Of a stretch of 38,513 bases of DNA, positions 1,040 through 5,407 are shown piece after piece. The stretch is from a virus. Each line of letters opens with the position of its first letter. Within the stretch, counting starts at the first letter, position 1. The notes beneath the pieces were generated by a model. That model was not told the origin of the DNA and did no database searches. It was given only the letters and a program-made list of their open reading frames with translations. The position numbers were made by a program, and so were the translations under genes. The stretch spans positions 1 to 38,513 of IMG/VR virus record IMGVR_UViG_3300008113_000654; one strand, given 5' to 3'.

Positions 1040-1174
1040 AACCCCTAGAAGATGCTCTGCGGTCTTGGCTCTTGGCGAGAGCAGCAGCGAGGCGTTTGAA
1101 ACGATCAAAAGACCCGCCCACTGCCATGCAAGACCGCACAGCACCCACTAGGGGTTCCAATCGTTTCAGCGCCT
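1040..1174 (-). ncRNA. candidate structured RNA element with pseudoknot topology
   Basis: Stem A joins 1040-1067 to 1129-1156: 9 perfect pairs (aacccctag/ctaggggtt), a partly paired internal loop, then 10 perfect pairs (tgcggtcttg/caagaccgca). Stem B joins 1090-1105, inside the loop of stem A, to 1160-1174 outside it: 5 pairs plus 8 pairs (gaaacgat/atcgtttc). The order A5'-B5'-A3'-B3' is that of a pseudoknot or of two competing folds. A small hairpin (1068-1072/1078-1082) lies within. Read on the minus strand, stem A is followed at once by TTTTTGCTTTT, as in an intrinsic terminator. The element would then sit in the leader of the late operon and could act as a terminator/antiterminator or processive antitermination element. 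The strand and function are inferred; the base pairing is direct. Confidence 0.45.
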
Positions 1175-4346: not shown

Positions 4347-4611
4347 TGAACAAAACAAACGCTATTGGGGGCTTGTTCTCAAGACCATAGCCGCGACCGC
4401 TTGGGTCGATGGTCAGCAGTTCTCAGCAGATGTGTGGCATGAGTTCTTTGCTCGGAAATTTGGCGTTTGTGAGGATGTGACGCTGCCCGGCGGTGAGGTG
4501 GTGACCCGCCGCCGCAGTACGACAGACATGAGCGTGTCGGAGTTCACCACCTACATGAACGAAGTCGAGTCCTACGCCGTGCAGCAACTTGGAGTGACTT
4601 TTGATGCGTGA
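4198..4611 (+). CDS. ninB: NinB/Orf family recombination protein
   Basis: This 137-residue protein starts with ATG 4198. The hallmark is PLRLIVTTAETKRNSEQNKR followed by YWGLVLKTIAATAW, the core of the NinB fold, then W-H-E-F-F (fkar) and a C-terminal helix ending near the stop. Lambda NinB (Orf, 146 residues) binds single-stranded DNA and SSB and can replace RecFOR in loading recombinase. Length and motifs fit well. It is in the recombination part of the early operon together with SSB, ERF and YqaJ. Confidence 0.85.
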   Translation: MTHLYREFHLRDLSVWNTFVAFVGSNAKAMADAGTPLRLIVTTAETKRNSEQNKRYWGLVLKTIAATAWVDGQQFSADVWHEFFARKFGVCEDVTLPGGEVVTRRRSTTDMSVSEFTTYMNEVESYAVQQLGVTFDA

Positions 4612-5407
4612 TCCATTCAAAATCGACGGCCCGACCTGCATCAGCTTTTCGGGGGGGCGCACTTCGGCCTATATGTTGTGGCGCGTGCTCCAAAGCAATG
4701 GTGGCTTGCCTGATGAAGCTGTTGTGTGCTTTGCCAATACCGGCAAGGAAGATGAGGCAACCTTGGAATTTGTGCGTGACTGCCAAACGCATTGGAATGT
4801 AGAAATTAATTGGCTTGAGTTTCGTCCCGAGGCTCCGCACTTTGCTTTGGTGAACTTTGAGACCGCGAGCAGACAAGGCGAGCCGTTTGCATCTTTGATC
4901 GAAAAGAAAAAGTATCTTCCAAACACATTTGCTAGGTTTTGCACAACTGATTTGAAGATTGTGCCCATGAAGCGTTTTATGGCATCTCGCGGCATGGATG
5001 AACATTGCACTTTTATTGGAATCCGCGCTGATGAGCCAAGGCGAGTCGCCAAAATGCGCGACAACAAAGACGAAAAGATTACTCCGCTTGCATCTGCCAA
5101 TGTAGGCAATCAAGACGTTTTGGCATTTTGGAATGCTCAAGCATTCAATCTTAAAACGGTGACTGTGGAAGGAAATTCATTGTTAAGCAATTGTGATCTT
5201 TGCTTCTTGAAAAAACCTTCTCATTTGCTGAACTTGATCAAAGATGCGCCACAAAGGGCTACATGGTGGATCAATCAAGAAAATCGCATCAATGCTCGAT
5301 TCAATCAAGGCATTCCTTCCTATGCGGAAATGCTGAAGTTTTCTCAGTCACAAGCGGATATGTTTGATCCTAGTGAAGAAGCTATTGCGTGCTTCTGTGG
5401 TGAGTGA
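4604..5407 (+). CDS. PAPS reductase-like PP-loop (CysH-like) phage enzyme
   Basis: This 267-residue protein starts ATG 4604, 9 bases after GGAG and overlapping ninB by 8 bases. It has the PP-loop SFSGGRTSAYML near residue 16, FANTGKEDEATLEFV, CTTDLKIVPMKRF, FIGIRADEPRRV, a conserved CDLCF pair and a C-terminal CFC. This is the adenine-nucleotide alpha-hydrolase fold of PAPS reductases, common in phages, where it may act in sulfur transfer to DNA or RNA or in nucleotide metabolism. The gene is visibly richer in A+T than its neighbours (about 35% G+C at 5161-5220 against about 63% at 5761-5820, counted by hand), suggesting a recent arrival. No DndDE-type partners are present. Confidence 0.8.
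   Translation: MRDPFKIDGPTCISFSGGRTSAYMLWRVLQSNGGLPDEAVVCFANTGKEDEATLEFVRDCQTHWNVEINWLEFRPEAPHFALVNFETASRQGEPFASLIEKKKYLPNTFARFCTTDLKIVPMKRFMASRGMDEHCTFIGIRADEPRRVAKMRDNKDEKITPLASANVGNQDVLAFWNAQAFNLKTVTVEGNSLLSNCDLCFLKKPSHLLNLIKDAPQRATWWINQENRINARFNQGIPSYAEMLKFSQSQADMFDPSEEAIACFCGE

Follow-up and report, generated by a model that had tools for sequence, protein, structure and literature searches.

Several phage systems are known in which a structured RNA or a terminator close to a promoter governs entry of RNA polymerase into an operon. In the late-gene entry point of lambda (pR'/6S RNA/tR'), a promoter is followed by a short promoter-proximal RNA, a terminator and then the late operon, which is read only by polymerase that passes, by Q-dependent antitermination. 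The put RNA of HK022, about 70 nt long with two stem-loops, lies just behind an early promoter or about 270 nt further on (PMC9378689); it suppresses termination in cis through the beta' zinc-binding domain, without a protein. The P4 CI RNA, or c4 antisense RNA, is a small RNA in a phage operon leader that terminates transcription. Two further kinds of RNA are relevant for their architecture: the phi29-type packaging RNA (pRNA), whose families diverge in sequence while keeping their architecture, and the type III toxin-antitoxin RNAs, which form tandem pseudoknot repeats next to a ToxN-like gene.

Here we analysed a freshwater phage sequence, the 38,513-nucleotide virus record IMGVR_UViG_3300008113_000654, referred to below in its whole length as the window. 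Late genes (terminase, portal, capsid, tail) are on the minus strand, whereas an early operon (methyltransferase, O-like replication gene, NinB, Erf, exonuclease, SSB) runs on the plus strand from 1324. The early operon also holds a queuine tRNA-ribosyltransferase-like gene (2203-2949, plus; possible DNA modification) and a PAPS reductase-like gene (4601-5407, plus). The original prediction placed two crossing stems, A and B, at the head of the late operon, and this observation is confirmed. Stem A is exactly where it was proposed, with arms of 28 nt that are 86% complementary. Stem B is real too, but its core is 9 bp; the extra AGGCG/CGCCT pairs counted in the prediction belong instead, by covariation, to a 5' hairpin and to hairpin C. 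The position at the head of the late operon is also correct: in locus L002 (L numbers denote individual loci), the RNA, ORF132, a small ORF and the large terminase lie on one strand within 3.6 kb. The features of the locus are listed in the table.

Table. Positions in the window of the promoter-proximal RNA, its predicted helices and the elements behind it
Feature	Positions	Strand	Remarks
-10 box (CACAAT) of the RNA's promoter	1197-1202	minus	transcription start inferred near 1190; 4/6 match, no clear -35
Whole small RNA (type T3)	1030-1193	minus	about 160 nt (about 1190-1030); 190 bits with the covariance model
5' hairpin HP1	1171-1190	minus	1190-1184 paired with 1177-1171, loop GUGGCA; all 7 pairs have double changes
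Stem B, 5' strand of the pseudoknot	1160-1168	minus	TGAAACGAT
Stem B, 3' strand	1097-1105	minus	ATCGTTTCA; in the loop of hairpin C
Stem A, 5' arm	1129-1156	minus
Stem A, 3' arm	1040-1067	minus	closes the RNA; terminator stem
Hairpin C	1084-1124	minus	1124-1115 paired with 1094-1084; 7 of 10 pairs with double changes
Hairpin D	1068-1082	minus	GCTCTCGCCAAGAGC; almost invariant; loop CGCCA
U-tract after stem A	1031-1041	minus	TTTTTGCTTTT; conserved in alignment A2
Second structured RNA, module alpha	816-1029	minus	starts right behind the terminator
Internal copy X of the sequence that follows alpha	881-891	minus
Downstream copy X'	801-815	minus	directly behind alpha's CACC end; same repeat as one (D2) found in the repeat search of the window
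First gene after the leader	346-744	minus	DUF5856 / phrog_858

Either strand folds far better than shuffled sequences, the minus strand best (-88.3 kcal/mol, z -5.6, against -68.3 kcal/mol, z -4.7, for the plus strand). To search for homologs, we first scanned viral contigs with a degenerate pattern of the stem, which gave 10 relatives, and then with an invariant 25-mer, which gave 32. The alignment of these homologs already showed that stem B changes sequence while keeping its pairing. A covariance model of the nested stems only was built from a subset of the MAFFT alignment A2, which was one base out of register in stem A, and the sequences were realigned through it. This model gave 80 matches at E 1e-9 or better, although its E-values are rough, and additional scans gave further ones. 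In 72 distinct sequences, 96.8% of cells are paired over 48 nested pairs, 33 of which show compensatory double changes, and the covariation score is 0.352, against 0.149 +/- 0.004 in shuffles and at most 0.093 when partners are slid. The alignment of the 80 matches was fitted to this structure, which favours it; however, the unfitted alignments A1 and A2 show the same changes. Covariation in related phages had been named beforehand as a check on the prediction, and both stems show strong compensation.

Stem B was not part of the model and thus provides an independent test. It occurs as 55 distinct helices, each with a pair score of at least 8 (mean 11), against 5.6 +/- 1.4 when the 5' strand of one RNA is paired with the loop of another. 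The best helix of each RNA was picked by search, but the cross comparison was picked in the same way. The pseudoknot changes its letters constantly while always keeping its base pairing.

The functional strand is the minus strand. Many G.U pairs conserved on this strand (for example, alignment columns 52/146 in all nine sequences of the model) would be A.C mismatches on the plus strand, and the promoter and the U-tract point the same way. In 75 of 75 homologs with enough flank, a -10-like hexamer lies at a fixed distance before the RNA; 44 are perfect TATAAT, 20 have a perfect TTGACA and 23 more have five of six. The window's own promoter is weaker, which might mean activator-dependent late use, although this is inference. 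The 3' end, GGGGTTTTTGCTTTTG, has the form of an intrinsic terminator whose stem is stem A; a simple terminator scan does not list it, because its loop limit is 8 nt. Could the palindromes be a DNA-level element, such as an operator, a replication origin or a recombination site, that only looks like RNA structure? The inverted repeats and, in the window, the position between divergent operons would fit. However, the strand-specific G.U pairs, the promoter and U-tract fixed on one strand, the pseudoknot and the covariation in hairpins with bulges strongly disfavour this view, which we consider very unlikely.

In RNA order, the element comprises HP1, the B 5' strand, the A 5' arm, hairpin C with the B 3' strand in its loop, hairpin D, the A 3' arm and the U-tract. 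The helix lengths derived from the alignment match, with about 28 bp for A and about 11 + 9-13 bp for C plus B, so that C-B can lie alongside A, with HP1 close enough for its loop to kiss the loop of D. This packing and the kissing contact are inferences, and the two loops hardly vary and so offer no covariation on the contact. The original prediction held that the two stems could switch between termination and readthrough, comparable in logic to put RNA or Q-type antitermination. Its interpretation is only partly supported: a structured element with pseudoknot topology, beyond chance and terminator-like on the minus strand, is borne out, whereas two alternative folds that switch are not supported. 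A and B share no nucleotide and can coexist, the homologs keep both, and the helix lengths fit a single compact fold.

The RNA matches no known family in the collections searched. Rfam 15 gave no match at gathering score or with a credible E-value on either strand, with no hits in the whole window and only chance matches at E 1.9 and 3.4 in 700-1400, and the result was the same for two relatives, L115 and L084. BLAST in phage and plasmid collections found nothing for this RNA (a piece carrying another RNA type, T1, with a beta module, both described below, matched one environmental podovirus), and genomes of 84,980 bacterial and archaeal species, at the sensitivity used, gave only two chance hits inside ordinary sequence. 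Literature searches, which left out most subscription journals and preprints, found no description of this family. By its structure it is not a put RNA, since it has about 160 nt, five helices, a pseudoknot and a closing terminator stem, although it too is a structured phage RNA and a candidate for acting on polymerase in cis; it starts at its promoter in 75 of 75 homologs and leads a late operon in the window, the timing of the promoter being undetermined. It is about the same size as pRNA, but it is not tied to a phi29-type packaging motor, as the phage has an ordinary large terminase, and neither pRNA nor P4 CI RNA is supported by an Rfam match. It does not fit a type III toxin-antitoxin RNA either: there is one copy per record, no tandem repeat of the element, and no toxin among the neighbours scanned.

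Behind every one of the 80 RNAs, 4-12 nt after its end, comes one of three motifs: alpha in 73 cases, beta in 6 and gamma in 1. Many of these loci were fetched with alpha or beta patterns; however, the 32 loci fetched with the RNA core alone also all have one. Alpha is a structured RNA in its own right, with double changes in 15 of 32 predicted pairs in 49 sequences. Since alpha covaries, it is taken to be transcribed, and no promoter fits between the two RNAs, so that polymerase must pass the terminator at least sometimes. The RNA is co-oriented with the downstream operon wherever examined: it lies at the head of the terminase operon in L002 and L008, and directly upstream of a replication-initiation gene in 43 of 80 loci. 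Many independent contigs (L010, L054-L058, L067 and others) begin about 410-460 nt upstream of the terminase start, suggesting a fixed physical genome end (cos-like).

The modules are exchanged. Alpha and beta patterns each matched at least 120 times in viral contigs, and other terminator-closed RNAs lie upstream of them. Type T1 (L127, about 280-400; L149, about 1990-2110; and about 40 other loci) is about 125 nt long, has its own promoter and shows a hypervariable pairing between its 5' hairpin loop and a downstream segment, with 13 distinct 7-8 bp helices (own score 7.3 against 4.1 crosswise). Type T2 (L115, 18130-18295), a different RNA of the same layout, occupies the same promoter in a close relative of the window phage and is followed by a beta module. 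T3 is found with alpha, beta or gamma, and T1 and T2 with alpha or beta. In L129, just upstream of 4024, a tRNA-like 3' end (GGTTCGATTCC) precedes a beta module instead of a T-type RNA. In L124, L212 and about 17 other beta loci, the beta module lies between a scaffold-like gene (no PHROGs match) and the major capsid protein gene, a context unlike the early/late junction.

Such exchange is well explained if the RNA is a stable trans-acting small RNA (decoy, anti-defence RNA or regulator), with unrelated RNAs plugged into the same place in different phages, as accessory loci do. The closing stem would then give a protected 3' end, and read-through would be mere leakage. The discrete promoter-RNA-terminator unit, the compact covarying fold, the replacement by T2 in the near-identical background of L115 and the absence of the family from 38 related records all agree with this view. 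Against it stand the conserved module that always follows and must come from read-through, the consistent orientation toward the operon, and the fact that no conserved single-stranded seed was recognised, the most variable part being base-paired. This strong rival cannot be excluded, but we hold it to be less likely than a role in cis.

Alternatively, the RNA and module alpha or beta may be two domains of one composite leader that stays with the polymerase, as put does, or is catalytic, the U-tract being only a linker. The narrow 4-12 nt spacing, the obligate pairing of the modules, the position of put just behind an early promoter and a coupled direct repeat at alpha's 3' boundary would fit. 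This repeat remains unexplained: alpha ends with CACC followed by X', and carries in a loop, after GGCTCC, a copy X of that flank. X and X' change together across 71 distinct loci (longest common run 7.3, against 4.4 crosswise). We found no complementary partner for them within about 500 nt, the hits at -17 coming from the T-rich terminator tail, a difference from the P4 CI RNA or c4 antisense RNA. However, the modules recombine freely, and all three T types inspected end in a GC-rich stem plus U-run, the hallmark of termination, which makes a composite leader doubtful.

Our preferred reading, to which we give a probability of about 0.5, is that of a promoter-proximal conditional-terminator leader, exchangeable between phages. 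Conditional termination at the operon head remains the leading idea, but for another reason than the one originally proposed: a second conserved RNA follows within 4-12 nt with no promoter of its own. The consistent orientation toward a major operon and the different RNA of the same layout at the same promoter in L115 also speak for it. Sequence comparison establishes the succession of a sigma70-type promoter, a compact pseudoknotted RNA whose closing stem plus U-tract has the form of an intrinsic terminator, a second structured RNA and the operon; what polymerase does there is inferred, in the absence of transcription data. In this view, host RNA polymerase would start at this promoter, make the RNA and stop at its end, unless a phage or host factor, or the folded RNA touching the polymerase, lets it pass to make alpha and the late genes. 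The pseudoknot would be an architectural closure of the fold, with stem C stacked on B alongside A, rather than an alternative to the terminator. By its sequence, the locus thus resembles lambda's pR'/6S RNA/tR', with an elaborate, exchangeable RNA in place of a plain leader and a second structured RNA behind it. However, the RNA is far more elaborate than a terminator needs, and no antiterminator gene was recognised: there was no Q hit among the window proteins scanned with PHROGs or Pfam, although several small ORFs have no match and not all ORFs were scanned. Furthermore, none of 38 records of relatives with a similar terminase carries this family, so this exact RNA is not essential; L115, the only one examined closely, carries another type.

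More broadly, it is possible, though tentative, that freshwater phages carry a general, unrecognised leader system. Interchangeable, terminator-closed RNAs (T1, T2, T3), at least two of them with a hypervariable pairing of the 5' region into an inner segment, would be plugged in front of a small set of second modules (alpha, beta, gamma) that decide entry of polymerase into major operons, with a module end that carries an internal copy of its own downstream flank. The promoter-terminator entry point is already known from lambda; the covarying pseudoknotted fold whose closing stem is the terminator is what differs here, and it defines a clearly supported RNA family present in at least dozens of environmental phages. 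What pressure changes the letters of stem B so fast while keeping the helix? If the leader reading holds, this family offers a new way to regulate entry into phage operons and a natural set of swappable terminator RNAs.
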